A program made the translations under genes and the position numbers. From the NCBI GenBank assembly GCA_023665825.1, contig JAMPDE010000002.1:282011-342456 (forward strand): a stretch of DNA of 60,446 nt. Reading direction: 5' to 3'. The DNA is from Alistipes senegalensis. Lineage in GTDB: Bacteria; Bacteroidota; Bacteroidia; Bacteroidales; Rikenellaceae. A model generated the notes under the pieces. It had not been told where the DNA came from. It did no database searches and worked only from the letters and a program-made list of their open reading frames with translations. Below, one piece after another: positions 26,059 to 48,482 of the stretch (positions are counted from its first letter, which is position 1; each line of letters opens with the position of its first letter).

Positions 26059-26072
26059 TCAAAAAATAACAC
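26059..26072 (-). promoter_or_regulatory. Shared 14-bp element, copy 1 (candidate HTCS operator)
   Basis: GTGTTATTTTTTGA on the minus strand. The same 14 bases occur at 48469-48482 ahead of operon B. In both, exactly 34 bp separate the element from the -7 box, placing it just upstream of the -33 position, where an activator would contact RNA polymerase. ATCG recurs at the same place inside both spacers. Confidence 0.6.
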
Positions 26073-26204
26073 ATTGCCCGGCTTCGGCAAATTTCGGATA
26101 CCGAAAATGCGCCTTTGCCGTCTCTGATAGTTTTAGACGAATCCGTGCTTCGGGAATCGCCTGAAAATTCGTAGTATTGCTGTCAGGACAAAACATATGC
26201 AGCT

Positions 26205-27266
26205 ATGAAAACAAAACGTCTTTCGAGATTTCTGATGATTGCGGCACTGGTGTTCGGCTGTGGGAATCCGTATGCGGAGGAGCGGCCGGATATATTGTGG
26301 TTTGCGACCGAAGATGCGCATTCTTATGATTTCGGCCGTTGCGGCAACGGGTGTTTCGCTACGCCGCCCGTGATGGACGGTTCGGACGGCTCCGCCGTCT
26401 CCGCCGAATCGCCGCTGTTTACTTTCGGAGTTGTTACCGACGTGCATTATTCGAGTGTCAAAGAGACGTGGGCGGCTCGTCATTATACCGAATCTGAAGA
26501 GAAACTTCGGGAGGCGGTCGCGACGTTCAACCGTGCACATGTCGATTTCGTGGTGTCGCTGGGCGATATGATCGACGGCGATGTCGGGAGCTACGCGGTG
26601 ATTCGGCCGATCTTGGAGCAGTCCGCAGCTCCCGTCTACAAAATTTTGGGAAATCACGATTATCTGGAGCCGTACGGTTCCGAAGAGCAGCGGCACGTGT
26701 TGGAGGTGCTCGGCATTTCCGACCCTTATTTCTCCGTGTCGAGGAACGGGTATCGGTTGCTATTTCTCGACAGCAACGATCTTTCGGTGTATGCCCGTGC
26801 AAAGGATTCGCCGGAGTACGAAGAGGCGGTCGCTCTCCTTGATTCGTTGAAGCGATCCGGTGCGGCGAACGCCCGGCAGTACAACGGTGCGATCGGAAAG
26901 GCGCAGCGGGCGTGGCTCGTTCGGGAGTTGTCCGCTGCCGAGAGCAGGGGTGAGCGGGTGATTTGCTTCGCCCATATGCCGCTCATGCCGCCGGCAGGTC
27001 AGTTTACATTGTGGAATAATATGCAGATTGCCGCCCTGTTGCAAAAATACGCTTGTGTCCGGGCATTTCTCGCAGGTCATCATCACAAAGGGGGTGTTGC
27101 CCGTTTCGGTTCCGTTCTGCATTTCACCTTTCAAGGCATGATCGAAGGGCTGGATAACCATTATGCGATCGTCGAGGTTTATCCTGAAAAATTCGTAATT
27201 CGCGGATATGGCGTTCAACCGGACGAAACGATCTGCTGGCTGCAGACGACCGCTCCGCATGATTGA
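26205..27266 (+). CDS. Secreted metallophosphoesterase with a sulfatase-like N-terminal segment
   Basis: A 353-residue protein in two parts. Residues about 65-345 are a calcineurin-like phosphoesterase with complete motifs: VVTDVHY, SLGDMIDG, GNHDYL, CFAHMPLM and GHHHKGG. The pattern (RHYTESEEKLREAVATFN) resembles Mn-dependent ADP-ribose/CDP-alcohol diphosphatase-like enzymes. Residues 27-58, after a signal peptide with possible lipobox VFGC, read RPDILWFATEDAHSYDFG followed by RCGNGCFATPPVMDG, which looks like the start of an S1 sulfatase (RPNILW..ED....YG...TPN.D) cut before its active site. The gene appears to be a fusion left by deletion. It is divergent from operon A and the only gene of its transcript, ending at the terminator at 27280-27304. 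Confidence 0.75.
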   Translation: MKTKRLSRFLMIAALVFGCGNPYAEERPDILWFATEDAHSYDFGRCGNGCFATPPVMDGSDGSAVSAESPLFTFGVVTDVHYSSVKETWAARHYTESEEKLREAVATFNRAHVDFVVSLGDMIDGDVGSYAVIRPILEQSAAPVYKILGNHDYLEPYGSEEQRHVLEVLGISDPYFSVSRNGYRLLFLDSNDLSVYARAKDSPEYEEAVALLDSLKRSGAANARQYNGAIGKAQRAWLVRELSAAESRGERVICFAHMPLMPPAGQFTLWNNMQIAALLQKYACVRAFLAGHHHKGGVARFGSVLHFTFQGMIEGLDNHYAIVEVYPEKFVIRGYGVQPDETICWLQTTAPHD

Positions 27267-27279
27267 TATGCACATGAAA

Positions 27280-27304
27280 AAGGGAGGAACTCGTTTCCTC
27301 CCTT
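27280..27304. terminator. Bidirectional hairpin terminator
   Basis: A perfect 10-bp stem AAGGGAGGAA/TTCCTCCCTT (27280-27289, 27295-27304), loop CTCGT, preceded by A residues. It lies between the convergent ends of the metallophosphoesterase gene and operon B. Confidence 0.75.
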
Positions 27305-27324: not shown

Positions 27325-29568
27325 TTATAGATTCAGAATCGTGTCGAGCGGCAGGTCAGCGCTGGAACTTCCTGCCTGCAGTACGAATTCACCTTGTTCC
27401 AGTTTCCAATCGTGGGACTCGGTATCCCAAAACGAAAAACTGCGGCGGTCCAGCTCCAGCGTCACCGTTTTGCTTTCGCCCGGTTCCAGTGTCACTTTGG
27501 TAAAGGCTTTCAGCTCTTTTTCCGGTCGTTCGACGCTGCTCCGGGTGTCGGAGACATAGAGTTGAACGATCTCTTTTCCGGCTCGGCTTCCGTCGTTTTT
27601 GACGCGTACCGTTACCAGAACTCTGCCTTCGTCCTCCATCCGGTTTTCGCAGACGATACTTTCATAGGTGAACGTTGTGTACGACAGTCCGTAGCCGAAG
27701 GGGAAGACGTATGGAATGCGATGCTTGTCGTACCATCTGTATCCGATGAAAACGCCTTCCGAATAGGGTACGTCGATCGTCTCGCCCGGGCGTATGTGAT
27801 TGGAAAAGCCCTTTACCGAGTCCTGTTTCCAGCCGAGCCAGTAATTTTTGTATTGGTTGTTGCCATGCCAGTAGGGCTTGCCGCCGATGTGGTTGAATCG
27901 CGGAGCGGGCGAATCGTCGAAGTTCCGTTCGACAGTGAACGGAAGTTTTCCCGAGAAGTTTTCTCGGCCGGAAAGCAGTGCCGCCAGTGCCGTCCCCCGT
28001 TCCTGCCCGAGAAAATAACACCAGACAACGCCCCGTACGTCTTTCAGCCAATCCATCGGCATCACGTTGCAGGCATTGATCAGCACGATGACGTTCTTGT
28101 TGAGTCTGGCCGTCTCCCGCAGCCGTTCGAGCTGGTCGGAGGGTTCTTCGTAGGGGATGTCCCGTCCTTCGCCTGCCGGTTTGTTGAGGCGGAAAAGCAC
28201 TACGTCGGCCTTGCGGATCGTCTCCCTGTCGGGATCGGTTTGGCAAATGAGATCGTCGCCGTAGACGGATCTCAATCCCTGTTCGTAGCTTACGTGGTCG
28301 TATCCCGTCACGAAGCCGCTGCCCGTTCCGCTATGAATTTCGTCGGTGCCGGTCAGCAGAATGCGCTGTCCCGGTTTCAGCGGCAAGATGTTGCGTTGGT
28401 TCTTGAGCAGCACCATCGCTTCCGCAGCGCACTGTGCTGCAATGGCTTTGTGCTTGTCGAAACGGGCGAAAAGCGACGGATCGTTGAAATCCCTGTCGTA
28501 AATTCCCATTTCAAAGAGCGCGTACAGGGTGGGGTAGATCATCCGTTCCAGCAAGGCTTCCACTTCGGCCTTGCGCTCCGCCGAAGCGGCGGTTTCGCGC
28601 AGGATGTACTCCCGGAACGTGGCGTTTTCGGGCATGAGCAGCGTTTCGCCCGACGTCAGCACCAGATGCTGCAGCTGCGGATAGTAGCCTGTATTCTGCC
28701 AGTCGGTCATGGCCATGCCCTTGAATCCGTACTCTCGGCGAAGTATGTCGGTGATCAGCGGTTTGTTCATCGGGCAGGGCAGGCCGTTGGTGAGGTTGTT
28801 GCCTGTCATTATGCCGAGACAGCCGGCTTCGGCGATCATCCGTTCCCATGGGAGCAGATAGATCTCGCGTAGGGTCCGTTCGTCGATCATGCTGTTGGCG
28901 ATGTGGCGGCAGAAGTCCTGATCGTTACCCAGAAAATGTTTGGGCGTGGCGATGATGCCGTTGTGCTGCAGCCCCTTGACATAGGCTGCGGCTATGACGG
29001 AGGTGAGCAGGGGATCTTCGCCCATGTACTCGAAATTCCGTCCGCCGACTGATAGCCGTTGGATATTGGCACCGGGCCCCAGCAGAATATCTACGCCGAG
29101 TGCCCTGCATTCTTCGGCCAGATTGCGCGACATCTCGGTCGCGAGCGCGGGGTTCCATGTCGAAGCCAGCGGCAGCATGCCGGGGAAGGAGGTGCTTTTG
29201 TCTTTCACCAGCGTCGTTTGCAGGCGAATGCCCTGTGAAGCGTCGGCCATCGAGACCGGACGCACGCCCAGACGGGGTATGCCGGCTATCATGAAGCGGT
29301 TCCAGCCGCCCGTTAAACGTAATTTTTCCTCGAAGTTCATGCGGCGGATCAAATCTGCGGCACGTTCCGAAGCCGGAAACGATGGGTCGGCATAAATAGC
29401 GCCGCGTATGACGGAATCGGCTTTGGCGAGCGGTTTGAGCGTGGCGATGTCGACGGCTACCATGCCGGGGGAATAGGCATTTTCGCTCTTTTTCCGATCC
29501 GGTGCGGCGTGGGTCGGCAGTCCGGCCGAAAGGAGCAGTAAGGCAAGGGAGGCGATTAGGCGTTTCAT
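27325..29568 (-). CDS. GH3 glycoside hydrolase, secreted
   Basis: A 747-residue GH3 enzyme with signal peptide MKRLIASLALLLLSAGLPTHA. The N-terminal TIM barrel (about 60-340) holds the nucleophile D289 in MAMTDWQNTG and the substrate-binding GGRNFEYMGEDP and ATPKHFLGNDQ (Lys-His) motifs; the alpha/beta sandwich follows (about 370-570), and a C-terminal fibronectin-III-like domain ends with LEPGESKTVTLELD. Typical specificities are beta-glucosidase or beta-xylosidase; the NDQDFCRHIANS region differs from the BglX-like GH3 encoded at 51785, so the two probably cleave different linkages. Last gene of operon B, 42 bp after the sulfatase gene. Confidence 0.87.
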   Translation of the reverse strand: MKRLIASLALLLLSAGLPTHAAPDRKKSENAYSPGMVAVDIATLKPLAKADSVIRGAIYADPSFPASERAADLIRRMNFEEKLRLTGGWNRFMIAGIPRLGVRPVSMADASQGIRLQTTLVKDKSTSFPGMLPLASTWNPALATEMSRNLAEECRALGVDILLGPGANIQRLSVGGRNFEYMGEDPLLTSVIAAAYVKGLQHNGIIATPKHFLGNDQDFCRHIANSMIDERTLREIYLLPWERMIAEAGCLGIMTGNNLTNGLPCPMNKPLITDILRREYGFKGMAMTDWQNTGYYPQLQHLVLTSGETLLMPENATFREYILRETAASAERKAEVEALLERMIYPTLYALFEMGIYDRDFNDPSLFARFDKHKAIAAQCAAEAMVLLKNQRNILPLKPGQRILLTGTDEIHSGTGSGFVTGYDHVSYEQGLRSVYGDDLICQTDPDRETIRKADVVLFRLNKPAGEGRDIPYEEPSDQLERLRETARLNKNVIVLINACNVMPMDWLKDVRGVVWCYFLGQERGTALAALLSGRENFSGKLPFTVERNFDDSPAPRFNHIGGKPYWHGNNQYKNYWLGWKQDSVKGFSNHIRPGETIDVPYSEGVFIGYRWYDKHRIPYVFPFGYGLSYTTFTYESIVCENRMEDEGRVLVTVRVKNDGSRAGKEIVQLYVSDTRSSVERPEKELKAFTKVTLEPGESKTVTLELDRRSFSFWDTESHDWKLEQGEFVLQAGSSSADLPLDTILNL

Positions 29569-29610
29569 TTCTTGATGTTCGGGTTGAATGGTTGATAATT
29601 GCGGCGGAAC

Positions 29611-31068
29611 CTACATCGCTCCGTTCGCCTGACCGAAGTTGAACAGCGGGGAGGGAATACGGGCCGTACGCATGATTTCTGCAATTTTCTGCACGATTTC
29701 AGGGTGCTCGTCCGCTACGTTGCGATCTTCGTGAATGTCGGTCGAGAGGTCGTACAGCTCGATGGGGCCTTCGGGATTTTTGCCGACGTTGAGCCGGATG
29801 CCCTTCCAGTTGCCTGTCCGGACTGCGATTTTGCCGCCGTTTTCGTGGAACTCCCAATAAAGATATTCGTGTTCCCGTTGTCCTTTTTCGCCGAACAGCG
29901 TCGGGAGTATCGAAATGCCGTCCACGTCTGCCGGAATCTCTGCACCTGCCATGTCGGCGAAGGTAGGAAGCACGTCCCAGAACGCCGATACGAAGTCCGT
30001 CCGAGTCCCTTCGGCGATCAGGCCGGGACACCGTGCTATCATCGGTACGCGGATTCCTCCTTCGTACATGTCGCGTTTGATGCCGCGCAGCGGCCCGTAG
30101 CTGTCGAAGAAGTCGGGATCGGCACCCCCTTCGCGATGCGGCCCGTTATCGCTCGTGAAGACGATGATCGTCCGCTTGCGTAGACCGAGACTGTCGATCA
30201 GCTGCGTCACTTCGCCTACATAACGGTCCAAACGGGTAATCATCGCGGCGAATGACGCTCGCGGTTCGGCCTGCGAGCAGTAGTGTATCGGATGCTTCCC
30301 TTCGGGCGAGTAGTCGCCGCTCTTCGCCGTATAGGGCTTCTCTTCGAACCGGCCCCGATACGCTTCGATGATTTCGTCTTCGGGAACCAGCAGTTCGGCG
30401 TGGGGCAGCGTGTATGCGAGGAATGCGAAGAATTTCCGATCCTTGTTCCGGCGGATGAAGTCGAGCGTCCGGTGCTGAATGATGTCGTGGGAGTATTGGG
30501 CCGTATGGGCCAGATCGTTGCCGTCGAGCAGGATTTTTTCGCGGTTGTGCCAGAGGTGGGTGGGGTAGTATTTATGGGCGAGCGCCTGACAGTTGTAGCC
30601 GAAGAATTCGTCGAATCCCTGATAGGTGGGATCGCCTTCCGACCCGGGCGAACCGAGCCCCCATTTGCCGAACGTTCCCGTTGCGTAGCCCGCCTGCCGG
30701 AACATTTTTCCCAGCGTATAGGTGCCGGACGGAATGGGGTGCTGGCCTTCCGCACCGTCGTCGCCGGTACCTCCTTTGTTTCCGCGTATGGGCGTGTGCC
30801 CCGTGTGCTGGCCCGTCATCAGTGCCGAGCGTGACGGTGCGCTCACCGTACAGCCCGCGTAATGCTGCGTGAACAGCATTCCTTCGGCGGCCAGCCGGTC
30901 GATATTGGGGGTATGGATTTTGGTCTGGCCGTAACAGCCGAGATCTCCGTAGCCGAGATCGTCGGCCAGAATGTAGACGACATTCAGGTCTTTCGCCCGG
31001 CTCTTCTGTTGCATACAGCCCGACAGAATGCCCATCGAGGCTGCGGTAAGGATCAGTTGGTTTTTCAT
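29611..31068 (-). CDS. Sulfatase lipoprotein (family S1, serine-type)
   Basis: A 485-residue sulfatase with lipobox (SMGILSGC at residues 11-18), so likely membrane-anchored. Metal-binding start VVYILADDLGYGDLGCYGQ; active site S76-A-P-S-R (TVSAPSRSALMTG), the serine form needing anSME. Further motifs: KWGLGSPGSEGDP, FLAYTLPHAELLVP, DRYVGEVTQLIDSLG, VFTSDNGPHREGGAD, RGIKRDMYEGGIRVPMIA. The overall pattern is that of arylsulfatase A-like enzymes acting on galactose or N-acetylgalactosamine sulfates, but I cannot fix the subfamily. Only 3 bp separate its start from the stop of the HTCS gene. Confidence 0.88.
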   Translation of the reverse strand: MKNQLILTAASMGILSGCMQQKSRAKDLNVVYILADDLGYGDLGCYGQTKIHTPNIDRLAAEGMLFTQHYAGCTVSAPSRSALMTGQHTGHTPIRGNKGGTGDDGAEGQHPIPSGTYTLGKMFRQAGYATGTFGKWGLGSPGSEGDPTYQGFDEFFGYNCQALAHKYYPTHLWHNREKILLDGNDLAHTAQYSHDIIQHRTLDFIRRNKDRKFFAFLAYTLPHAELLVPEDEIIEAYRGRFEEKPYTAKSGDYSPEGKHPIHYCSQAEPRASFAAMITRLDRYVGEVTQLIDSLGLRKRTIIVFTSDNGPHREGGADPDFFDSYGPLRGIKRDMYEGGIRVPMIARCPGLIAEGTRTDFVSAFWDVLPTFADMAGAEIPADVDGISILPTLFGEKGQREHEYLYWEFHENGGKIAVRTGNWKGIRLNVGKNPEGPIELYDLSTDIHEDRNVADEHPEIVQKIAEIMRTARIPSPLFNFGQANGAM

Positions 31069-31071
31069 AGG

Positions 31072-34000
31072 TTACTCATTGTTATGTTCGTTGTGATGTT
31101 GTTTGGCGTATACTTTCGGTGTCACGCCGAATACTTCCCGGAAGCACATCGAGAAGTAGGAGCGGTGGTTGAACCCCACCTCGTACATGGCGTCGGTGAC
31201 CGATATGCCTTTGACGCGCAAAAGCTGGGCGGCTTTCTTGAGCCGGATTTCCCGGATGAAGGCATTGACGTTCAGTCCCGTGATGGCCTTTACCTTGCGG
31301 TAAAAGTTCACATGGCTCACGGCCAATTTGTCGCATAGGAACGGAATGTTCAGGTCGGGATCGGCCATGTTCTCTTCGATCAGTGCCACCACCTTGCGGA
31401 TGAATAGTTCATCGGGCGACTGCCGTTCGACCGAGGCGATATTGACTGTATCGCGCCGCAGGCTGTCGCGCAGACGACAACGTTGGGTGAGGATATTGTC
31501 CACCCGGCGCAGGAGTACCCGCAGGTTGAACGGTTTGCCGATATATTCGTCGGCTCCGGCGTCGAAACCTTCGATGATGTGCTCTTCGGCCGTACGTGCC
31601 GTGAGCAGGATTACCGAGATATGGTTCAGCACGAAGTCGTTCTTGATCCTGCGGCATAACTCCACGCCGCTCATGCCTGTAAGCATCACGTCGGAAATCA
31701 CCAGATCGGGCATGGTTTCGTTCACGAGCTTCCAGCCGTTCTCCGCGTCTTCGACAGCGATGACGCGGTAGCTTTTTTCCAGTTCGGCTTTGAGGTAGGA
31801 GCGCATGTCCTCGTTGTCTTCGACCAGCAGCACCGTGAATTCGTGCCCGGAGCGGAGGCTTGCTTCCGGTTCGGCCGGAAACGGATCTGCAGTCTCCGTA
31901 CTCCCGGATTCGGCCGGGTCGTAGTCGGCTTCGTTGACGATCGGGAGCGTCACGATGAAAGTCGTACCCTGTTTGTCTCGGCTCATGACCTCGATGTGTC
32001 CGTGATGCAGCTCGACGAACTCCTTGACGATCATCAAGCCGATTCCCGTACCGCGTGTTCCGAGTCCGGTGTGCTCTTCGACCTGATAGAAACGTTCGAA
32101 TATGTGCGGGAGGTCGCCGTCGGGAATTCCGATGCCCGTGTCGGCCACCATCACTTCGATGTCTTCGGTGTCCTTACGCCGGAGGCTGACGAGCACCTGC
32201 CCCTCTTCGGGGGTGAATTTGATGGCATTGGAGAGGAGGTTGACGAAGATCTTGTCGATTTTATCGGGGTCGAAATCCATTACGAGCCGTTCTTCGCCCG
32301 ATTCGAACAGCAGGGAGATTCGCTTTTTCTGGGCCAGTTCGCTGAACGACCGGCAGATTCCCCGCAGGGTCGTGACGATGTCTTCCGATACGGGGTTGAG
32401 TTTCATTTTCTGATTCTCGACCTTGCGGAAATCGAGTATCTGGTTCACGAGCCGTAGCAGGCGCAGGGCGTTCTGCTTGATGATCCGCAGATTGTTCACC
32501 TTTTCAGGGTCCATCTCGGTGTCGAGCAACGTTTCGACGGGGCTGATAATCAGGCTCAACGGTGTGCGGAAATCATGGGATATGTTGGTGAAGAATTGCA
32601 GTTTCAATCGATTGACGCTTTCGATTTTTTCGCGTTCGAGCTTCTCTTTTTGGAGTTCGTCTTCGGCCTGTCGGCGTTTGCGGGTGATCGAGTTCAGGTA
32701 GTAGGCTGCGATTGCAACGGTCAGGAGATAGATCAGATAAGCCCACCATGCGGCCCACCACGGAGGCGTGATCGTAATATCGAAACTCAGTTCGTTCGAC
32801 GCCGGTACCCCGTCGCTGCTCACAGCTGCGACCCGCAGGGTGTAGTGTCCCGGAGCCAGTTTTGTATATTCGACATAGGGAGACGTGCCCGTCACGGTTT
32901 TCCAGTTTTCGTCGTAGCCTTCGAGCTTGTAGGTGTAGCGGGTGAGCGACGGAGTAGAGTAGTCGAGCATGGCGAAGCAGATCGACAGTATGTTCTGGTT
33001 GTAGGGCAATTTCAGCCGTTTCAGTTCTTGCACCGGAGTTTCGCATAGCCCGTACTCCGCGATCGTGCGGTTGTCGATGCGGATGTCGGTGATGTAGAGC
33101 GGTGCTCTCTCTTTCTTGGGGATGACGTCGGCCCGGCTGAGTTGCAGGTAGCAGTCCAGACCGAATACGAGCACGTTGTTTCCGTGAGAGACCGAGACCG
33201 GAAAGATCGCGTTGCGCCGGTCGAACCAGTGGTTCAGCGAGAACATCTTGGAGGTCTGCGACAGTACGTCGTAGCAGGTTACGCCTTGTTGCGTGGTAAA
33301 CCACAAAAGCCCCGAATCATCGCTGTTGATGGTATAGACCGCTTCCGAAGTTTCGCAATCGGATATGTGCCGGAACGCATCGGATGCGGCGTCGTAAAGA
33401 TCCAGCCCCTTGTCCGTTCCCACCCATAATCGGTGGGTGTTGGGGTCGACGAATAGGCAGAGAATCACGTCGGAACCCAGCGTCGAGGGGTCGTCTTGGG
33501 CCGAAAGATACCGTTTGTGGCTGCCTGTTTGCTTGTCGTAGCGCACCAGACCGCTGCCCGGTGTTCCGTGCCAAACGTAGTTTTCATCCACGACCATTGA
33601 TTCGATCGGTTCGCCCGTGCGGACAAGGCTGTCTGCAACGGGCCCGAACTGACGGGTTGAAGCGTCGAACGCATAATCGATGATCTGCATCCGGCCCATC
33701 GCGTCACTGACATACATTTTGCCTGCGGAGTCCTGCATCACGGCATAAATGTATTTGAGCCGGTCGCGCAGGCGCGATTGAATCGGCACCTCCCGGTTCC
33801 GCCGGGTATCGTAGCAGACCAATCCTTCGGCTGTCCCGATCCACAGAATGTCGTTGTCGTCGAGCGAAAGGCTTTTGACGAAGTTGTATGTTCCGACTAC
33901 GGCGTTCGAAAGATTGATCCACTGCATCCGGTTCTGTTCCGGTTCGTAGACCGACAACCCGAACCGCGATCCGAGCCACAGCCGGCCGGAGCGATCTATC

Positions 34001-35088: not shown

Positions 35089-35102
35089 CGGATTCCAATG
35101 GT

Positions 35103-38781: not shown

Positions 38782-38787
38782 AACCTT

Positions 38788-40707
38788 TTACTCTTCGATG
38801 CTCCAGCCCGGATTTTGTTCCAGCAGCGGACTTTTGTTCATTTCCTTTTCCTGAATGGGGAATAGGTAAAACTTCTCTTTCCATGTTTTGGTTATCAGCT
38901 CCTCTACGCCGAAGGTGAGTTTGCTGCCCGATTTGGTGATGATCTGCTTGTAAATCGTGACGGGCGAACGCATTTTCCAGCGGTTCAGGTCGAAGAAACG
39001 CTGCTCTTCCTGAAAAAATTCGATCCAGCGTTCATGGATGATGCGCTTGCGCATTTCGCTCTGTCCGAGTCCTGCGGGCAGCGGCGAGATGCTTTTGCCG
39101 GCAGCCGCTTTGGGCATGCCTACGGGCCATTTGAAGTCCTGCATGTTGTAATTCGGGAACTTCGCGCGTTCGCGTACCAGATTGACCGCCTCGCGCGCTG
39201 ACATGGGATACCCGGCCGGCACCGCATCGGGGTCGCCGAAGGCTTCGTTTACCGCTTCGGCGTAATTGAGCAGGATCTCGGCGTAGCGGAAAATGATGAA
39301 GTTGTGATTCACTTTCAGTATTGTGCCGTATCCGGTGATGTTCGCCCATGCGTCGAGGAACTTGCGGTTGAAGAACCCCGTGCAGTAGAAACCTTTGGCT
39401 GTGGCGTCGTGGGTGCCGCCGACGTACGACTCGAATTTCGGCGTATCGGTGGCCGTCGTGCCCCGGGCGGGCCACGGCTCGCCGTTGTACCAGACCGACT
39501 GGTAGAAACGCGGATCGCGGTTCACATAGGGATTCTGGGGGTCGAAGCCGCTTTCAGGATCGGTTCCGTTTGTCTCATGGAGTTGTAGCAGCTTGTCGAG
39601 ACCGAGCAGATGGGTCGAAACCACATTGCCTTGTTCGTCGAGTTTGACGACCTCGTATTCGGCTACGGTATTCAAGGTGGGGAAGTTGTTCAGCACGCCA
39701 AATGCGTAGTTGAACAACTGGCCGGGAAGACAGTTTCGTTCGAGTCGGACGGCGAACTGATCCTGTTGGTAGGCCAGAATGATTTCGGGACTGTAGCGGC
39801 GGAGAAACAGATCTTCGTAATCGCCGTAACGTTCGGGATCGGTACTTTGGTGCAAGGCGTAGCCGTGGGTGTTTTCGAGGAAATACTTGGCCGCTTCGGC
39901 TGCGATTTTCCACTTTTCGGCATTGTATTCGCCTCGAAAAGCACTGCCGGCGGGATTCTGCATGTCGTTGAATAGCGGGCTGGCTGCCAGGAGGCGTACG
40001 CGGGAAATCAGTGCGTAGCAGGCGCCTTTGGTGGCGCGTCCCCATTCCGAGTCCGCGTATTCGTCCACATGGGGCAGGTCGTCTGCGGCCTGCATCGCTT
40101 CGGAACAGATGAATTCGACTACTTCATCGAATTCGGCGCGTGCTCCGTGCAACTCTGCTGCATCGTCGGGTCCGAGTACACGGGTTACGATGGGTACGCC
40201 GCCGTAGAATTTCAACAGTTCGTAGTAGAACAATGCGCGCAGGAAACGGGCTTCACCTTTCATTCGCGTGCGTACGCCCTCGTCGATGAACGGTTCGGGG
40301 GAGTCGGGAATTTCGTCGGCATGCTCCAGAAAACGGCATGCCGCACGAATCGCCGTATAGTATTTTTCCCAAGGATCGTAGTTGAGAAGCATGTCGGTCG
40401 TCGCCCATGCTCCGACGCTCATTTTATAAGCATTGTCCCAGTTGGCCTTCCAGATGCCTTCATCGACGGCATTGCCGAGGAACCCGCCCGAATCGTTGCT
40501 CCCGAAAACCATGAATCCGTCGTTCATGCTTTTGTAGATATTGCTCAAAAACCATGTGGCATTGTAGGGATCGCTGAAGACCATGTTTTCGTAGATGTCG
40601 TTCGACTCCTCTTTGTCCAGTAGGCTCGAACTGTCTTCGCAGCCCACGACGCCCGACAAGAGAGCCAGTGCACATATGATACCGTATTTGTTTATTTTCG
40701 TAGCCAT
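38788..40707 (-). CDS. SusD/RagB-type glycan-binding lipoprotein (second pair)
   Basis: A 639-residue surface lipoprotein; lipobox LSGVVGC at residues 17-23. SusD family features: N-terminal TPR-rich part (ATWFLSNIYKSMNDGF, GEARFLRALFYYELLKFYGGVPIVTRVL), then FRYAEILLNYAEAVNEAFGD, the C-terminal ERWIEFFQEEQRFFDLNRWK and the ending SPLLEQNPGW. It is longer than SusD (about 550). It would form the lid on the SusC barrel encoded directly upstream (12 bp gap) and capture glycan at the cell surface. The preceding pair at 43763-48349 is a separate transporter, so operon B encodes two. Confidence 0.93.
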   Translation of the reverse strand: MATKINKYGIICALALLSGVVGCEDSSSLLDKEESNDIYENMVFSDPYNATWFLSNIYKSMNDGFMVFGSNDSGGFLGNAVDEGIWKANWDNAYKMSVGAWATTDMLLNYDPWEKYYTAIRAACRFLEHADEIPDSPEPFIDEGVRTRMKGEARFLRALFYYELLKFYGGVPIVTRVLGPDDAAELHGARAEFDEVVEFICSEAMQAADDLPHVDEYADSEWGRATKGACYALISRVRLLAASPLFNDMQNPAGSAFRGEYNAEKWKIAAEAAKYFLENTHGYALHQSTDPERYGDYEDLFLRRYSPEIILAYQQDQFAVRLERNCLPGQLFNYAFGVLNNFPTLNTVAEYEVVKLDEQGNVVSTHLLGLDKLLQLHETNGTDPESGFDPQNPYVNRDPRFYQSVWYNGEPWPARGTTATDTPKFESYVGGTHDATAKGFYCTGFFNRKFLDAWANITGYGTILKVNHNFIIFRYAEILLNYAEAVNEAFGDPDAVPAGYPMSAREAVNLVRERAKFPNYNMQDFKWPVGMPKAAAGKSISPLPAGLGQSEMRKRIIHERWIEFFQEEQRFFDLNRWKMRSPVTIYKQIITKSGSKLTFGVEELITKTWKEKFYLFPIQEKEMNKSPLLEQNPGWSIEE

Positions 40708-40719
40708 TGCTGGTATGGA

Positions 40720-43700
40720 TTAGAAGTTAATGTTGATACCGAAATTCCACATCTTCATCTGCGGGTAGAAATAGCCTGTTTCATCCCCCATTTCGGGATC
40801 GAAGTTCTTGATCTCCGAGAATGTCAACAGGTTGTTGCCGCCCACGTAGATGCGTATGGAGTTCAGCCCGATGAACCGGAGCTGCCGTTTGTTGAATGTG
40901 TAGCCGATTTCGATGCTTTTGAGCCGGAGATAATCGCCCTTTTTCAGATAGAATGTATTGGTGCACTGGTTGTGCTTGTTCGTAGTGCTTGACAGACGCG
41001 GGTATTTGATCGTCTCCCCGTTCTGCCAGCGCTCTTCGGTCCAGCGGTAGAGATGGATGTCTTGGAAGCGGTTGCGTTCGCGCACCGGTTCGTAGAGCGA
41101 CTTGGTCATCAGTTTGCTGTTGCCGCCGGCACCCTGCCACATCATGCTGAAATCGAAATTCCGAAAGCTCAGGCCGAACGTGAAGTTGTAGACGAAACGC
41201 GGTATCTTCGACCGCCCGATAGGGCCTTCGTCGAACGAGTCGATCACTCCGTCGTCGTTGCGGTCCCAGTACATGAAGTCGCCCGGTTGTACGGGATATT
41301 GAGGTTGCGGCAGGTCGGGATTCAGCACGCGTAGGCCGTCGATCGTGGTGAAGTCGTCGGGCAGGTAGTAGCGCAGGACCGTGTGGCCGAAATACTGGCC
41401 GATCGGTTTGCCGGTCTGACGCAGATATTCGTATTTGGGCTCGACTTCGTCCTTGTAGAGCACCTTGTTTTTCGAGTAGGAGAACATGCCCGATACGAAC
41501 CAGCTGAAATTCCGGTTCACGACGTCGCGGTATCCGGCTTCGATTTCAAAACCTTCGTTGCGGACCTTGCCGAGATTCTCCTTGGCCGTGCCGACGCCGA
41601 GTATCTGGGGCGTTGTGTTGCGCGAGATGAAGATCTTTTCGCGGTCTTCGCGGAAGATGTCGGCGTTCAGTGTCAGCTTGTCGAAGAAGGTCAGGTCGAT
41701 ACCGACGTTGGTCTTCTTGCCGATTTCCCATGTGACGTTTGTGTTGCCGAGCGCCCCTTCGGACAGGGTGGGCATCCCTCCGAAACCGTTGTCCTTGCCG
41801 AAGAAGTAATTCCCGTTCTTGTCGTAGGTTTGCAGGTATAGGAAGCGGTCCGACCCGATCTTGTCGTTGCCGACCTCGCCGTAGGAGGCGCGCAGTTTCA
41901 TGAAGGTGATGAAAGGCAGCGACCGCTGTATGAATCCTTCGTTGGAGAGGACGTAACCGAGTGCGAACGATGGGAAGAAATCGTAGCGGTGTCCCTTGTC
42001 GAATTGGTCGGAGCCGTTGTAGCCCAGATTCACTTCGGCGAGGTACTTGCTCTTGTAGGCATAGGTCGCACGGGCCGCATACCCCAGAAACGCACGCGGA
42101 AGCACGGCATTGTTATTTTCTTTGGTCTGCGTGTATACTGCCATGGCCGTGACGGCATGGTCGCCGAAAGTGCGGTCGTAGTTGATTCCTACCTCGATAT
42201 TGGTCCGGCGGCGGTGCCCTTTGCCCGACAGGGAAGTGATCGAGGGGGCGCTTTCTTCTTTGGCAAGCGTTTTTTCCGTGTCGCTGACATACCGGTATGT
42301 AGGCGGTCGGTAGCTGACTTTCGTGCCGTCGTCGTAGTAACTGTTGAAACTTACCAAACCGCGTGCGGAGAGGCCTTTGGTCACGAAATCCAGTTTTTGG
42401 TGCAGTTTGACCGTGCCTTCCAGACTATTGGAGGCGAGGCGCGAATAGCCCCAGTCGCTGAGCATGGCCATCAGGTTCTCCGCTTCGTTATCCGAACTGG
42501 CACCGTAAGAGCCGTCGGGAAGCAGGTAAGGGTAGGACATCGGGGGCGTTTCGTACATCATCGAGAATATCAGGTTGTCGTTGAGACCCTGACTGTTGTT
42601 CTGCTTTTGGTCGAGACGTCCGTTGAGATCGAGGCTCAGCTCGGTGGTCTTCGTCAGCGAGAAGTCGAGGTTGGCCCGGAGGTTGATGCGTTTGAAATTG
42701 GCGTTCGACGGATATTTGCCGTTGAACTGCCGGTAGATGCCTTCCTGCGAAAGTCCGTTCAGCGCCACATAATAGCGTACGTTGTCCGTACCGCCGCGCA
42801 CGTTGACGTTGAGCTTGTGCATCGGTGTCGTTTTGCGCAAGAAATCCTTTACATAGTCGTTGTCGGGATGGGTGTAGGGCGAATCACCCAGCCGGTAGTG
42901 TTCGATGTCCTCTTCGGTGAATGCAGGGCGTGCGCCGTCGTTGGCGAGCGATTCGTTGCGCAACACTGCGTGGTCGTATGATCCGAGAAAAGTCGGGAGG
43001 CGGGTCGGCTGCTGCAGCGTGAAAGTATAGTTCATGTTGAACTTCGGAGCACCTTTCGAACCGCGTTTGGTCGTAATCAGGATTACGCCGTTGGCACCGC
43101 GCACACCGTAGACGGCAGTCGCCGAAGCATCTTTGAGTACGGAGAGCTGCGCAATATCTTCCGGGTCGACCTGCGAATAGTCGCGTTCGACGCCGTCGAC
43201 CAGTACCAGCGGGGCCGAATCGCCGCTCATCGTGGCGATACCTCGCACATAGATCTCGGCGTCGTCGCTTCCCGGACGGCCCGAAGGCACGGTAAACGTC
43301 ACACCGGCCACTTTGCCGGCCAGTGCCGTACTCAGATTGGGGCTTCCCATCTGTTTGAGCTCTTCGGAAGTGGTCGAGGAGATGGCTCCTACCACGCTCT
43401 GCTTTTTCTGTACGCCGTAACCTACGACCACGACCTCCTCCACGTTGGTTGCGGAAGGTTCCATGTCGATGAGCATCGGTCGGGTCGTAATTTCGAGAAT
43501 TCGGGTGATGTAACCGATGTAAGAGGCTTGAATCGTGCTTCGCGCGTTCTTTACGTTCATCGAGAACTGCCCTTGCGAGTCGGTGACCGTACCGTTGGTG
43601 AAGTTGTCCGTCTCGACGATGCTCACACCCACCATCGGTTGGTTCAGCTCGTCCACGACCGTACCCGATACGGAGACCGGCTGGGCATGGAGCGTGCCGA

Positions 43701-43743
43701 GCGAAATCAAAATCGTTGCAAATAAAGCTATTGTCTTTTTCAT
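40720..43743 (-). CDS. SusC/RagA-type TonB-dependent glycan transporter (second pair)
   Basis: A 1007-residue outer-membrane transporter. Signal peptide MKKTIALFATILISLGTLHA, carboxypeptidase-D-like regulatory domain (VSGTVVDELNQPMVGVSI ... ARSTIQASYIGY), TonB-box region EEVVVVGYG, plug (about 115-230) with the SusC-specific SVLKDASATAVYGVRGANG, then the 22-strand barrel ending MKMWNFGININF. Length is normal for SusC. It would import oligosaccharides with energy from TonB-ExbBD, together with SusD encoded 12 bp downstream. Third gene of operon B, 19 bp after the first susD. Confidence 0.95.
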   Translation of the reverse strand: MKKTIALFATILISLGTLHAQPVSVSGTVVDELNQPMVGVSIVETDNFTNGTVTDSQGQFSMNVKNARSTIQASYIGYITRILEITTRPMLIDMEPSATNVEEVVVVGYGVQKKQSVVGAISSTTSEELKQMGSPNLSTALAGKVAGVTFTVPSGRPGSDDAEIYVRGIATMSGDSAPLVLVDGVERDYSQVDPEDIAQLSVLKDASATAVYGVRGANGVILITTKRGSKGAPKFNMNYTFTLQQPTRLPTFLGSYDHAVLRNESLANDGARPAFTEEDIEHYRLGDSPYTHPDNDYVKDFLRKTTPMHKLNVNVRGGTDNVRYYVALNGLSQEGIYRQFNGKYPSNANFKRINLRANLDFSLTKTTELSLDLNGRLDQKQNNSQGLNDNLIFSMMYETPPMSYPYLLPDGSYGASSDNEAENLMAMLSDWGYSRLASNSLEGTVKLHQKLDFVTKGLSARGLVSFNSYYDDGTKVSYRPPTYRYVSDTEKTLAKEESAPSITSLSGKGHRRRTNIEVGINYDRTFGDHAVTAMAVYTQTKENNNAVLPRAFLGYAARATYAYKSKYLAEVNLGYNGSDQFDKGHRYDFFPSFALGYVLSNEGFIQRSLPFITFMKLRASYGEVGNDKIGSDRFLYLQTYDKNGNYFFGKDNGFGGMPTLSEGALGNTNVTWEIGKKTNVGIDLTFFDKLTLNADIFREDREKIFISRNTTPQILGVGTAKENLGKVRNEGFEIEAGYRDVVNRNFSWFVSGMFSYSKNKVLYKDEVEPKYEYLRQTGKPIGQYFGHTVLRYYLPDDFTTIDGLRVLNPDLPQPQYPVQPGDFMYWDRNDDGVIDSFDEGPIGRSKIPRFVYNFTFGLSFRNFDFSMMWQGAGGNSKLMTKSLYEPVRERNRFQDIHLYRWTEERWQNGETIKYPRLSSTTNKHNQCTNTFYLKKGDYLRLKSIEIGYTFNKRQLRFIGLNSIRIYVGGNNLLTFSEIKNFDPEMGDETGYFYPQMKMWNFGININF

Positions 43744-43762
43744 GGATTTTATCTCTTATAAT

Positions 43763-45505
43763 TTACCATAACGGGTTGTTGCTTTTGATGGCGGAGTTGT
43801 TCACCACATCGCCGTTAGGAATCGGATAGAGGTAGAATTTGGGAGAGAACTGCCGGCTGCCCGCATTTTCCACGATCCGGTAGGAGAAAGCATCGCCGTT
43901 TTTGGTGATCTGCATGCCCCGAATGTTTTCGCTCAATACTTCGTCAGCGATTTTCCAGCGTTTCACGTCGTAATAGCGGTGGTCTTCGAATGCCAGTTCG
44001 ACCCGACGCTCCCGACGGATGGCGGCACGCATCGCTTCGGTGTCACCTTCGGCGGCATCCACATCGCTCTGCGAGGGGCGGAGTACGCGGCTGCGCACCG
44101 CTTTCAGCGCGTCGCGTGCCGTCAGACCGCATCCCAGCGGGTCGACGTCGGGCCCGTAAGCTTCATTGACGGCTTCGGCGTAGTCGAGCAGCAGTTCCGC
44201 ATAGCGGAACAGCGGAAAACAGTGGTTGGTGTTCGTGGGTGTTCCTGAAATCACTACTTCACTGCCGCAGAATTTGGACATGTAATACCCTGTCCGGGTC
44301 GAGGTGTTGGTGTTGTTGTGCGCTCCGCCCTGAAAGGTCTCGATCGTCGTGCCGTTCCAGTTCTGCCCGTTGTGGAAAATGCTGGCATAGAAACGCGGAT
44401 CGCGGTTGTCATAGGGATTCGTTCGGTCGTAAAGACTTTCGGGATCGTCGATCGGCAGGCCGGTTACCGTTCCGTAGGCGTCGACCATTTGTTGCGAAGG
44501 GCTCGTCAACCCCTTGCCGTTGGGAATGCCCACCGGGAAATTCTGGATCTCGACGCGGTTGCCGACTTTCGACGTGCGGGGCAGAATCAGTTCTTTGTTG
44601 CCGGAGATCACCGTGAAAAGTTTCCGGTAGTTGGCCGAGCCGTTGGTAATCACCTGTTCGTCCTTGTCCGTCTCCGCGATGGGGCTGGGCTTGTAGATGT
44701 CGTAATCGCCCAGTTTGATCACTTCGGCTGCGGCTGTTGCGGCGTACTCCCAGCGTTTCTGGTCGTAGGAACCGTAGCAGATGAATTCGTTGTCGCTGCC
44801 GTCGTATCCTTTGCCGTTGTAGAGCGGGCTGGCCGCATAAAGCAGCAGACGGGCTTTGAGGGCGAGCGCGGCACCTTTCGATGCGCGGCCGAAATTGACA
44901 TTGTTCGGTGCCGGCAGGTCCGTATACGCTTCGTCGCACAGCTCGGCGATGTAATCCACGCAATCAGCGAATGATGAGCGGGGCACGTTCAGATCCTCCG
45001 AAAGCTCGTACCTCCGGTCGATGAGCGGCACGCCGCCGTAGCGCTTGACCAGCTCGAAGTAGAAAAACGCTTTCAGAAATTTCAGTTCGGCTTGAAGCTG
45101 GAGCTTCAGATCGCGGTTGGCTTCGGGTAGTTTTTCGAGCCCGACGATGCCGATGTTGGCATCGCGGATGAATTTGTAGTTATTTTCCCAACAGCCGTCG
45201 GGATTGTTTTTTCGGGGCGTGAGCGAACCGTCGGTCAAAAAGACGATCGAAGAGCCCGGTACGGTTATCATGGCTTCGTCCGATGCCGAGGCGAGCATGG
45301 CTCCGTCTACGCGGTTGTAGCCGTTTTCGTCGGATTTGTCGAACGGAAGTCCCAGATAGACTCCGAGAACGTATCCTTCGGCTTTCTTGTCGTTCGAGAA
45401 GACAAAGTCGGAATCGTATTTGTCGAACGGCATCTCTTCGAAATCGCAGGAGACAACCGTCGCAACGAGGAACAGAAGCGAGATATATTTGAAAATGGTT
45501 TTCAT
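43763..45505 (-). CDS. SusD/RagB-type glycan-binding lipoprotein (first pair)
   Basis: A 580-residue lipoprotein with lipobox VATVVSC at the N-terminus. Family signatures: AELKFLKAFFYFELVKRYGG, RASKGAALALKARLLLYAAS, FRYAELLLDYAEAVNEAYGP, RRERRVELAFEDHRYYDVKRWK and the C-terminal NSAIKSNNPLW. Length is that of standard SusD. It shares little detailed sequence with the second SusD (38788-40707), so the pairs probably recognise different ligands or different parts of one glycan. Partner of the atypical SusC encoded 12 bp upstream. Confidence 0.94.
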   Translation of the reverse strand: MKTIFKYISLLFLVATVVSCDFEEMPFDKYDSDFVFSNDKKAEGYVLGVYLGLPFDKSDENGYNRVDGAMLASASDEAMITVPGSSIVFLTDGSLTPRKNNPDGCWENNYKFIRDANIGIVGLEKLPEANRDLKLQLQAELKFLKAFFYFELVKRYGGVPLIDRRYELSEDLNVPRSSFADCVDYIAELCDEAYTDLPAPNNVNFGRASKGAALALKARLLLYAASPLYNGKGYDGSDNEFICYGSYDQKRWEYAATAAAEVIKLGDYDIYKPSPIAETDKDEQVITNGSANYRKLFTVISGNKELILPRTSKVGNRVEIQNFPVGIPNGKGLTSPSQQMVDAYGTVTGLPIDDPESLYDRTNPYDNRDPRFYASIFHNGQNWNGTTIETFQGGAHNNTNTSTRTGYYMSKFCGSEVVISGTPTNTNHCFPLFRYAELLLDYAEAVNEAYGPDVDPLGCGLTARDALKAVRSRVLRPSQSDVDAAEGDTEAMRAAIRRERRVELAFEDHRYYDVKRWKIADEVLSENIRGMQITKNGDAFSYRIVENAGSRQFSPKFYLYPIPNGDVVNNSAIKSNNPLW

Positions 45506-45517
45506 GGCTCGGCAGGT

Positions 45518-48349
45518 TTAGAATGATATGTTGAGACCCATGCAGACGGTCCGCTGCAAAGGATAGACGGTTCCCGTCATGGTCGTTTCCGGGTCGAGAA
45601 TGTCGATCTTGTCGGAGGTGAAGAGGTTCGTTGCGGAGACATAAATGCGCAGGTTCTTCAGCCAGACGGTTTTTGCGGCGCGGGCGGGCAGCGTATAACC
45701 CAGTTCGACGCTTTTCAGACGCAGATAGGAGGCGTCGCGGAGCCAGTAGTCAGAGTTCGGGCCTCGGTTGTTGCCGTCGTTGCCCGTCAGGCTGAGACGG
45801 GGGTATTTGGCTGTCAGGCGGGTGTCGATGCCGTTGGCGGGATCATAGGCCCAGCGGTCGAGGTGATGCTCCATCACGTTGCCCTTTCCGTCGGGACGGA
45901 ATTCCCAGTAGACGTATCCGCCCAGTTTTTTCTGTACGTTGCCCACACCTTGAAATGCGACGTTCAGATCGAAGCCGCGATAGTTCAGGTCGATGCCGAA
46001 TCCGTAAACGTATTCGGGGATGTCGCCGTAACCGAGATAGGTGCGGTCGTCTTCGTTGATATAGCCGTCTTTGCTCAGGTCCAGATAGCGGATGTCGCCG
46101 GGGTTGTAGGTGCCGTAGGTCTGCGTCGCATGGTCGGCGATCTCGGCGTAGTCGAAGAAGAGCCCGTCGGATTTCAGGCCGAACGAAGAGTTGATCGGAT
46201 AGCCTGTCTTTTTATTGAAGCGATAGGTCGCATCGGTTTCCTGCATCTCTTTCACGCGGTTGCGGGCGAAGCTGAAATTTCCGTAGACCGAGTAGCCTAA
46301 CTTGCCGATGCGCGACGTGTAGTCGGTGGCGATCTCGAATCCGCTGTTTGTCATGCGGCCTATGTTATTCTTGATCGACCCGCGAACGCCGATGATGTCG
46401 GGGATGCTTGCCTGTCCGATGATCAGGTGGTCGTTGTTTTCGTAAAAGCCGTCGACCGACAGGGACCATTTGTCTTTGAACATCCGTATGTCCACTCCGA
46501 CATTGGTCTTGTGCGAACGTTCGGCCATGATGTTGTTCACGCCGACCTGCGATTCCCGGAATCCCTGCATCGAGGCGAGCGACTGTCCTTGGAGGTAGGT
46601 GCTGCCGAGCGAACTGAAGAACGAGCTTTTCTGGAAATAGCTGATGTTGGTGTCGTTGCCCGAAACTCCGTAGGAAGCCCTCAATTTGAGGAAACTGATG
46701 AATGTTTTGTTTTTCAGGAAGTTTTCTTCGGAAATGATCCAGCCGGCGGAGACCGAAGGGAAGACGTTGTAGCCGTTTCCGCCGATTTGCTCGCTGCCCT
46801 GACAGGCGATGGTGAAGTCGGCGATGTAGCGGCGTTTGAAATCGTAGTGGGCGTAGGCGAACAGCCCTTTGTAGATATGGGGCATGATCTTGCCGTTGCC
46901 GGATTCGTTGTTGTAGTTGATGAATATCCGGCCCGAAAGATTATGATTACCGAACGACCGGGCGTAGTCGAGTCCCGCCTGCAAGTCCAGTGTGCGGTAG
47001 TTGTTCGAGAAACTGTTGTCGTTTTTTTGGGTGGCGGGGTTTTTCGTTCCCTGCTGGTTGTTGAGGCTGCCGTCGTACACCACGAATCCGACGTTGCGGT
47101 TGATGGCCTGCTCGAAATAGCTGTCGAATGAGAACGAACCGAAAACCGAGAGCCCCCGCGTGATGAAGTCTAGCTTGTGGTCGAGTTTCAGCGTGGCGTA
47201 GTTGGAACGGGTCTGGAAGATCGAGTATCCGCTGTTGTTGAGCAATCCGTAAGGGTTGTTGAGGTATTGGGAGGTGCCGCTGAGCGATCCGTCTTCGTTA
47301 AAGATCGGGTGGGCGTTGGGAGGCGTCTGCGTCAATGCATTCAGAATACGGGATGTGCTGTTTGAATAGGCGCCCGGGTAATTCCATTTGGACATCAGCG
47401 ACGCGATGTCGAGACCGATGACGAACCGTTCGGTGACGTTTACGTCGACGTTGCCCCGTAGCGAATAATTCTCGTAGCTGGCGTTGGTCTTGTAGGTGTT
47501 GGCGCTCTTGTCCACGTTGTAGAGTCCCGAATTGTCCACGTATCCTACGGAGGCGTAGTAGCGTACGCGTTCCGTACCGCCCCGTACGCTTACGTTGTAG
47601 CGCTGCACGACGGAAAATTTTTTCATGAATTCGTCCATCCAGTCGACATCGGGATAGTTGTAGGGGTCGTCGCCACGGAGGTAGGCGTCGAGCGCATACC
47701 GGTCGTATTTGGGCGATCCGCCGTCGTTGACCGCCGCTTCGTTATAGAGGCGTGCGTAGTTGTACGATCCGAGATATTTCGGCAGGCGTGTCGGAGTATG
47801 AAACCCTACTCCGGCGTCGAGACTTACCGTCAGGGGTTGCATGCGGCCATGCTTCGTCGTGATCAGCACGACACCGTTCGCTCCCCGCAGACCATAAAGG
47901 GCGGTCGCTGCGGCGTCTTTCAGAATCGTAATCGATTCGATGTCGGCCGGAGAGATTCGGTTGGCATCTTTGCGCACGTAACCGTCCACCAGAATGGCGG
48001 CCTGCCGGGAGTCGGACGAGATGCTCCGAAGTCCCCGTATGTACATCGAATTGGATTCGATGCCCAGTTCTCCGTCGTGCTGGATGCCCAGAAATCCGGT
48101 CACCCGCCCGTTGAGCAGGTTCGTCCGGTTGATTCCGGGCAGGTATTCCAGTTGCCAGCCCCCGATGGAAGATACGGCGGCCGTAGTCAGATCCTTGTCG
48201 GACGCATGGTAGGGCGATACCATGACCGTGTTCGCTTTTACCGCGAGCGAGTCTGGCACGGCGGCAGCCGCTTCCGGAGCATACATCGGAGACAGACTCG
48301 CCAGAAGGAGACCGGCACATGTCAAATCTTTGAGTCGAGATACTCTCAT
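45518..48349 (-). CDS. SusC-type TonB-dependent transporter lacking the N-terminal regulatory domain (first pair)
   Basis: A 943-residue outer-membrane transporter and first gene of operon B. The start at 48349 gives the signal peptide MRVSRLKDLTCAGLLLASLS; the open frame extends to 48439 through promoter sequence. Unlike the second SusC it has no carboxypeptidase-D-like domain and no VVVVGYG box: about 30 residues after the signal peptide (VKANTVMVSPYHASDKDL) the plug begins, with MYIRGLRSISSDSRQAAIL and TILKDAAATALYGLRGANG intact. The barrel is complete and ends MGLNISF. TVMVSPY may stand in for the TonB box, or coupling may differ. The partner SusD follows after 12 bp. Confidence 0.9.
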   Translation of the reverse strand: MRVSRLKDLTCAGLLLASLSPMYAPEAAAAVPDSLAVKANTVMVSPYHASDKDLTTAAVSSIGGWQLEYLPGINRTNLLNGRVTGFLGIQHDGELGIESNSMYIRGLRSISSDSRQAAILVDGYVRKDANRISPADIESITILKDAAATALYGLRGANGVVLITTKHGRMQPLTVSLDAGVGFHTPTRLPKYLGSYNYARLYNEAAVNDGGSPKYDRYALDAYLRGDDPYNYPDVDWMDEFMKKFSVVQRYNVSVRGGTERVRYYASVGYVDNSGLYNVDKSANTYKTNASYENYSLRGNVDVNVTERFVIGLDIASLMSKWNYPGAYSNSTSRILNALTQTPPNAHPIFNEDGSLSGTSQYLNNPYGLLNNSGYSIFQTRSNYATLKLDHKLDFITRGLSVFGSFSFDSYFEQAINRNVGFVVYDGSLNNQQGTKNPATQKNDNSFSNNYRTLDLQAGLDYARSFGNHNLSGRIFINYNNESGNGKIMPHIYKGLFAYAHYDFKRRYIADFTIACQGSEQIGGNGYNVFPSVSAGWIISEENFLKNKTFISFLKLRASYGVSGNDTNISYFQKSSFFSSLGSTYLQGQSLASMQGFRESQVGVNNIMAERSHKTNVGVDIRMFKDKWSLSVDGFYENNDHLIIGQASIPDIIGVRGSIKNNIGRMTNSGFEIATDYTSRIGKLGYSVYGNFSFARNRVKEMQETDATYRFNKKTGYPINSSFGLKSDGLFFDYAEIADHATQTYGTYNPGDIRYLDLSKDGYINEDDRTYLGYGDIPEYVYGFGIDLNYRGFDLNVAFQGVGNVQKKLGGYVYWEFRPDGKGNVMEHHLDRWAYDPANGIDTRLTAKYPRLSLTGNDGNNRGPNSDYWLRDASYLRLKSVELGYTLPARAAKTVWLKNLRIYVSATNLFTSDKIDILDPETTMTGTVYPLQRTVCMGLNISF

Positions 48350-48426
48350 AAGAAAAGTTTTTGGGTTAATAGTTTGGTTGTCGTTGGTTCGGGTTGCGGT
48401 TTGTTCCGTATAAAGCGACCCGTTCG

Positions 48427-48434
48427 CAAAATTC
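48427..48434 (-). promoter_or_regulatory. -7-like box of glycan operon B
   Basis: GAATTTTG on the minus strand differs from TAnnTTTG by one base. It is followed by CGA exactly as at the operon A box (26017-26024) and sits at the same distance from the shared 14-bp element. Confidence 0.45.
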
Positions 48435-48468
48435 ATCAATTCGATTGTTAGAAAAGACTACATTTTCT

Positions 48469-48482
48469 TCAAAAAATAACAC
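48469..48482 (-). promoter_or_regulatory. Shared 14-bp element, copy 2 (candidate HTCS operator)
   Basis: GTGTTATTTTTTGA on the minus strand, identical to 26059-26072, with the same 34-bp gap to the -7-like box. It stands 120 bp upstream of the first susC ATG, in front of the operon that encodes the HTCS. Confidence 0.6.

Follow-up and report, generated by a model that had tools for sequence, protein, structure and literature searches.

A Shared Promoter Element Ahead of Three Glycan Operons, Predicted to Be an HTCS Operator with a 21-bp Direct Repeat, in Alistipes senegalensis

Results

Gene Cluster and Its Shared Promoter Element

An identical 14-bp element, GTGTTATTTTTTGA, precedes two operons of one sulfatase-rich glycan utilisation cluster (Pfam assignments) in the same register relative to a -7-type box, and a related third site faces a divergent operon of this cluster; the observation on the first two sites (A and B) is exact, and chance is excluded as its source. 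Judged from sequence, it is very probable that the 14-mer is the distal half of an operator of the cluster's HTCS and that sites A, B and C would co-activate three operons, with the HTCS standing in for the -33 promoter element. This reading is supported by matches of the same arrangement found in HTCS clusters of other genomes in a gene-blind search and by a 21-bp direct repeat like that of known HTCS operators, and it is further supported by a 21-bp signature located approximately 54 bp ahead of the -7 box near other HTCS genes, where its excess over a small control was not significant. The proposal of the first-pass annotation that one HTCS drives operons A and B was supported for both of them and extended, as a prediction, to operon C. 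The sites, their uniqueness, their spacing, their occurrence in other clusters and the 21-bp repeat were computed.

The following genes of the cluster were identified in the window, i.e., in the whole stretch of DNA analysed (60,446 nucleotides); the three operons were inferred from close gene spacing.

17211..25994, minus strand: operon A, four genes
23400-25994, minus strand: GH2 mannosidase-like (operon A, Pfam)
21853-23442, minus strand: sulfatase (operon A, Pfam)
18551-21850, minus strand: GH2 beta-galactosidase-like, LacZ-like (operon A, Pfam)
17211-18806, minus strand: protein without a Pfam match (operon A)
27325..48349, minus strand: operon B
45518-48349, minus strand: SusC (operon B)
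43763-45505, minus strand: SusD (operon B)
40720-43743, minus strand: SusC (operon B)
38788-40707, minus strand: SusD (operon B)
37327-38781, minus strand: protein without a Pfam match (operon B)
36223-37308, minus strand: weak DUF3604 match (operon B)
35103-36209, minus strand: ORF, lipoprotein-like by eye (operon B)
31072-35088, minus strand: HTCS (operon B)
29611-31068, minus strand: sulfatase (operon B)
27325-29568, minus strand: GH3 (operon B)
48681..56647, plus strand: operon C, five genes, divergent from operon B
48681-50138, plus strand: protein without a Pfam match (operon C)
50139-51638, plus strand: BACON (operon C)
51785-53935, plus strand: GH3 (operon C)
53940-55469, plus strand: sulfatase (operon C)
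55466-56647, plus strand: purple-acid-phosphatase-like (operon C)
26205..27266, plus strand: metallophosphatase gene behind candidate site D

The ORFs at 35103-36209 and 36223-37308, which stand in tandem ahead of the HTCS gene, may be paralogues.

Sites A, B and C and Candidate D

Base-by-base reading located the 14-mer at 26059-26072 and 48469-48482, both on the minus strand and both inside divergent intergenic regions, with a gap of 34 bp between element and box in each promoter, exactly as given in the first-pass annotation. The places of the -7-type boxes were also exact, although box B (GAATTTTG) is one base off the TAnnTTTG consensus. The -33 regions had been described as poor, and no TTTG was seen by eye at the expected -33 place of promoters A and B; the same applied to promoter C. 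CGA after both boxes and ATCG at spacer positions 24-27, pointed out earlier as common to A and B, are indeed present in these two promoters but are missing from site C and from six foreign sites, and their sharing is probably a coincidence. The earlier description had to be widened in two respects: the exact 14-bp element belongs to an operator longer than 14 bp, and besides the two real sites A and B, a site on the plus strand of the second intergenic region (site C) had been overlooked. The features of the sites were as follows.

26059..26072, minus strand: site A, distal half-site GTGTTATTTTTTGA, with extension CGGATCG at 26058-26052
26038..26051, minus strand: site A, weak proximal half-site predicted over the -33 region, at an offset of 21 bp downstream from the distal half
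26017..26024, minus strand: promoter A, -7 box TATGTTTG; first gene begins with ATG at 25994
48469..48482, minus strand: site B, distal half-site GTGTTATTTTTTGA
48448..48461, minus strand: site B, predicted proximal half-site GTAGTCTTTTCTAA (10/20 identities, eight-site alignment)
48427..48434, minus strand: promoter B, -7 box GAATTTTG, with 5/6 fixed positions of TAnnTTTG
48578..48591, plus strand: site C, distal half-site GCGCTATTTTTTGG
48599..48612, plus strand: site C, predicted proximal half-site (7/20 identities, eight-site alignment)
48626..48633, plus strand: promoter C, -7 box TATATTTG, exact TAnnTTTG; ATG at 48681
26124..26137, plus strand: weak candidate site D, CTGATAGTTTTAGA followed by CGAATCC
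26172-26179, plus strand: candidate site D, imperfect box TAGTATTG, preceding the metallophosphatase gene at 26205

The half-sites of site A had 7/20 identities, the proximal half being deduced from the eight-site alignment. Site C was detected with a weight matrix and in a scan that allowed degenerate copies of the element 34 bp ahead of a box; its box begins 34 bp after the element and faces the divergent operon starting at 48681. A matrix built from four foreign sites alone placed A, B and C at ranks 1-3 of 120,652 window positions (scores of 30.5, 26.6 and 25.7, respectively; next window position 12.6, a gap of 13 bits). This ranking involves some circularity for A and B, whose 14-mer had served to find the foreign sites, whereas that of site C escapes it, since C played no role in the foreign-site search. 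Candidate D ranked 6 or 8 of 120,652, depending on the training set, and, its box being imperfect, was not accepted as a fourth site but kept as a weak candidate.

No third copy of GTGTTATTTTTTGA was present in the window at two or fewer mismatches. The scan of the genome (2,274,797 bases, 88% complete) revealed only the two exact copies and none with one mismatch (reversed control, 0); the many copies or copies inside genes that the first-pass annotation had named as speaking against its reading were thus absent genome-wide at 0 or 1 mismatch. At exactly two mismatches, 14 extra matches were found (16 in total, the reversed control also giving 16), and none of these 14 copies had a TTTG box at the same distance.

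The Same Operator in Other Genomes

The pattern TGTTATTTTTTGACNGAA-N29-TAnnTTTG was searched for without regard to genes in 268 genomes of the family with up to three mismatches, which gave nine matches in seven genomes (A, B and seven foreign ones) and no control matches. All four foreign matches with two or fewer mismatches lay in clusters holding an HTCS gene; near the matches with three mismatches (G147, G197 and G239), no HTCS was found in the stretches read. The element, extended to GTGTTATTTTTTGACNGAATC and with the same spacing, was present in HTCS clusters of three related genomes. In G013, the site is located ahead of a GH88 gene and a SusC run, with the HTCS 13 kb further on. The G070 sites flank an HTCS: one lies 92 bp beyond the 3' end of the HTCS ORF, and the second, 16 kb away, precedes a GH115/GH43 operon; a weaker G070 site (four mismatches in the 14-mer, exact box) stands ahead of a SusC run. 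The G214 site precedes a LacZ-like gene (69% identical to its operon A counterpart), which is followed by a GH42-like gene and then by the HTCS. Judging by the Pfam matches, the foreign clusters bearing the sites appear to serve different glycans.

Two broader searches were of limited use. The 14-mer with TTTG at two or fewer mismatches matched in 52 of the 268 genomes but, as a sole search, was mostly noise, since the reversed control also matched in many genomes; the follow-up was confined to matches that had both the extension and a box like TAnnTTTG. A covariance model (sequence only, eight sites, 268 genomes) ranked the eight training sites first (E ≤ 4e-7), with a gap before the next match, G072:C15:133404 (E = 0.0017), whose flanks are common with those of a G070 site. 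For further single sites, the model was rejected, as 193 of the 268 genomes matched at E ≤ 1, which is about chance level. The G072 site (L209 16405, plus strand) is kin of the G070 site, carries ATA where the latter has ATG just past the box, and is possibly a decayed promoter.

It should be added that a matrix scan of 2.17 Mb, comprising HTCS and control stretches, showed further relatives of the operator, lower in score but each with an exact TAnnTTTG box, at additional HTCS loci in G197 and G070; these candidates are to be taken as leads:

L299, 18414, minus strand: lower-scoring relative
L300, 2928, minus strand: lower-scoring relative
L301, 8033, plus strand: lower-scoring relative
L301, 2936, minus strand: lower-scoring relative
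L136, 8226, minus strand: lower-scoring relative
L229, 17351, minus strand: lower-scoring relative
L230, 5562, minus strand: lower-scoring relative

Direct Repeat and Operator Shape

The eight sites aligned without gaps, and the conserved parts were positions 1-14, the extension GACNGAAT and the box. Comparison of the eight sites with themselves peaked at an offset of 21, with 39% identity, whereas the remaining offsets between 14 and 30 gave 15-30%; none of 5000 shuffles reached this value at that offset (p = 0.0008 for the maximum over 17 offsets). The repeat is weak in single sites (5-10/20 identities). Assuming that the box is centred at -7 (PMC7366714), the distal half extends from approximately -59 to -46; the proximal half, from approximately -38 to -25, covers the place of the missing -33 element.

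The HTCS and Its Relatives

The HTCS gene (31072..35088, minus strand; Pfam Reg_prop, Y_Y_Y, HisKA, HATPase_c, Response_reg and HTH_18) encodes a two-component protein with a propeller sensor (predicted to be periplasmic), a kinase, a receiver and an AraC-type HTH within a single polypeptide. Upstream of the gene, the same gene run holds two SusC and two SusD genes. The statement of the first-pass annotation that it is the only such regulator of the window agreed with the scan of ten further window ORFs, among which no regulator was found (six Pfam-matched and four without a match). The listed start, TTG at 35736, is too far upstream, and the alignments of family homologues with the long ORF begin no earlier than residue 197; ATG at 35088 fits, as the preceding ORF ends just before it, at 35103. 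The over-long ORF of 1554 aa served as the query in the orthologue searches. At E = 1e-200, a search of 61 genomes returned only the genome of origin, and at E = 1e-150, with two candidates scored per genome, no close orthologue was found in the 268 family genomes (29 matched, the best other at 35% identity). A named genome collection gave 21 matching loci and no orthologue (top best-segment identity of 64% at one locus, E = 7e-13). The first SusC (45518-48349) was tried as a footprint anchor and rejected, its best relative being only 39% identical. As these searches found no close HTCS orthologue, conservation of the operator was seen at clusters of other HTCS genes and not in a true phylogenetic footprint.

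The receiver of the window HTCS carries the motif NHIS, alone among the 80 distinct receiver matches compared, of which 66 have SHIP or CHIP. According to the available part of PMC11253607, the receiver motif is S/CHIP, and departures from it are tied to the loss of an inhibitory contact between the receiver and the DNA-binding domain; in the light of this report, the NHIS motif suggests that the window HTCS may bind DNA unphosphorylated.

Fragments comprising the receiver and the DNA-binding domain of the site-linked foreign HTCSs were 33-46% identical to that of the window, and the DNA-binding domains of the site-linked HTCSs fell into two groups, window with G214 and G070 with G013 (their clustering among 73 domains was not significant, p = 0.059). 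Such divergence would suit a different regulator, AraC-type, one-component or global, that reads the element, with an HTCS nearby because such clusters usually hold one. This is unlikely, since the four foreign matches with two or fewer mismatches sit in HTCS clusters and the repeat spacing equals the HTCS operator spacing given in the accessible text of PMC3878776. A global regulator would be expected to have sites genome-wide, whereas two sites occur at one or fewer mismatches, both in one cluster, and the palindrome of a Crp-like regulator, TATGTTnTAnAACATA (taken from the same part of PMC3878776), had no match in the window at three or fewer mismatches. The sites are rare and narrowly localised, which makes it likelier that the diverged HTCSs have kept their DNA contacts while the rest drifted than that another protein reads the site.

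Enhancer, Duplication and Coincidence

A T-rich element might also be a general UP-like (A+T-rich) enhancer of strong promoters, as its core consists of six T and as the accessible part of PMC7366714 reports that no -33 motif was found in Flavobacterium promoters, so that upstream help may be common. A general element would, however, be common, whereas this one is rare in the genome, and its conservation extends to non-T bases (GACNGAAT) and to a 21-bp repeat, which makes this explanation very unlikely. Coincidence or a recently duplicated promoter fragment is hardly credible: although the pair was picked out in an unguided reading of 60 kb, so that some selection is built in, and 4 of 100 dinucleotide shuffles of the window had at least two matches at two or fewer mismatches, the roughly estimated expectation of a 14-mer shared in one register among 16 promoters (an assumed number) of this composition is about 6e-5, site C and the foreign sites obey the same grammar, and the unlike flanks and spacer of A and B (13/60 identities in the 60 bp upstream, 13/60 in the 60 bp after the box and 12/34 in the spacer, with 5/8 in the box) rule out a recent copy.

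Generality of the 21-bp Signature

Promoter sets were formed from every TAnnTTT(G/A) box before an ORF around HTCS genes. The first set, from which sites of the described class were left out, contained 98 promoters from 27 loci; its strict version, with five loci dropped (four holding the sites themselves, and G072:C15:117-153 kb, which has no HTCS nearby), contained 76, and the second set contained 85 promoters from G226, G068 and G173. The offset of 21 took rank 1 of 28 in the 98, the strict 76 and the 85 promoters (z = 2.9, 2.9 and 3.8, respectively), and in the pooled strict 161 HTCS promoters, none of 300 shuffles reached its value at any offset. The excess peaks approximately 54 bp before the -7 box. 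In 48 control promoters, the offset of 21 ranked 5 of 28 (z = 1.1), and the values at this offset for the 161 HTCS and 48 control promoters (30.2% vs. 28.3%) did not differ significantly (p = 0.13), the control being small, drawn from 20 stretches of one genome (G070) picked away from HTCS matches, and possibly including glycan clusters. In other families, 59 HTCS matches were found in 15 of 23 genomes, and 21 promoters from six loci gave rank 3 of 28 for this offset (z = 1.3).

Sharing of an element in the same register did not emerge as a general trait of the 27 loci: at least 12/16 identities were found in 3 of 219 within-locus pairs versus 46 of 5330 between-locus pairs. The two best within-locus pairs were the G070 pair and the window pair (A with C); B is missing among these candidates because its box is off consensus. 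As a separate observation, paired promoters with a different 21-bp repeat occur at another HTCS locus of the genome that holds the window, in G000:C22 at about 359-395 kb (L201, L202; HTCS locus at about 378 kb), and a similar promoter pair occurs in G070:C5 at about 2573-2609 kb (L213, L214). This repeat is of the TGACGAAAATTAC / TGATAAAAAATCC type, and its distance to the box is roughly that of the operator described above.

It is conceivable, although this falls somewhat short of being probable, that the HTCS promoters of the family share one grammar, namely a 21-bp repeat with its proximal half replacing the -33 element and a fixed distance to the box, and that HTCSs differing in their sensors and target glycans, with clearly diverged DNA-binding domains, use nearly the same operator, so that operators of different glycan clusters could be swapped or cross-read.

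Discussion

The arrangement of the sites is consistent with the following course of events. On meeting its glycan through the periplasmic sensor, the HTCS would phosphorylate the receiver of its own chain. An HTCS dimer would then place its AraC-type domains on two half-sites that are 21 bp apart and face the same side of the DNA, the distal half being conserved and strong and the proximal half weak and lying over the missing -33 element. The bound HTCS would bring RNA polymerase, carrying the primary sigma factor, to the TAnnTTTG-like box 34 bp downstream of the 14-mer, so that sites A, B and C would turn on operons A, B and C together. We infer both the binding and activation by the HTCS and its role as a substitute for the -33 element. 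Since the HTCS gene lies inside operon B, the HTCS would probably raise its own level once induced (positive feedback), an internal promoter being possible.

At the araBAD promoter of E. coli, AraC occupies the direct half-sites I1 and I2, which are 21 bp apart, the proximal one being weaker and touching the -35 region. The predicted operator resembles these sites in having two direct half-sites 21 bp apart, with the weaker proximal one at the -35/-33 place; unlike AraC, the HTCS is membrane-bound and activated by phosphorylation, and another sigma factor is involved.

As far as the available part of PMC3878776 (Ravcheev et al. 2013) goes, HTCS operators of B. thetaiotaomicron (16 HTCSs) are direct repeats with two conserved sites, 21 bp on average, several operons of one locus share an HTCS motif (e.g., HTCS_Hep and HTCS_Rgu-1), and for 20 of the 36 HTCSs of this species the operator was unpredicted in 2013. 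The cluster described here resembles those regulons in its AraC-type HTCS beside susC/susD, its 21-bp repeat and its several operons per locus, whereas it differs in its unequal half-sites, of which one is close to perfect and the other poor. The fixed distance of 34 bp to the -7 box is not discussed for the B. thetaiotaomicron regulons in the accessible portion of that paper, the main text of which has no occurrence of "transcription start", and no statement of a fixed distance between an HTCS half-site and a -7 box was found in the accessible part of the literature searched, which left most subscription journals outside. The fixed register of half-sites and box may therefore be new.

Sigma-ABfr promoters of Bacteroides have TAnnTTTG at -7 and TTTG at -33, according to the available part of PMC7366714. 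Promoters A and C agree with them exactly in the -7 box and promoter B in 5/6 fixed positions; all three differ from them, as judged by eye, in having no TTTG at -33.

Shared HTCS operators are a known kind of control, and the geometry found here is unusually clear. Many glycan clusters of Bacteroidota are switched by HTCSs, and the present cluster offers three predicted sites located with single-base precision. Should this register prove general, it would become possible to predict the targets of HTCSs in uncultured bacteria from their sequences and to design synthetic promoters responsive to glycans by rule.
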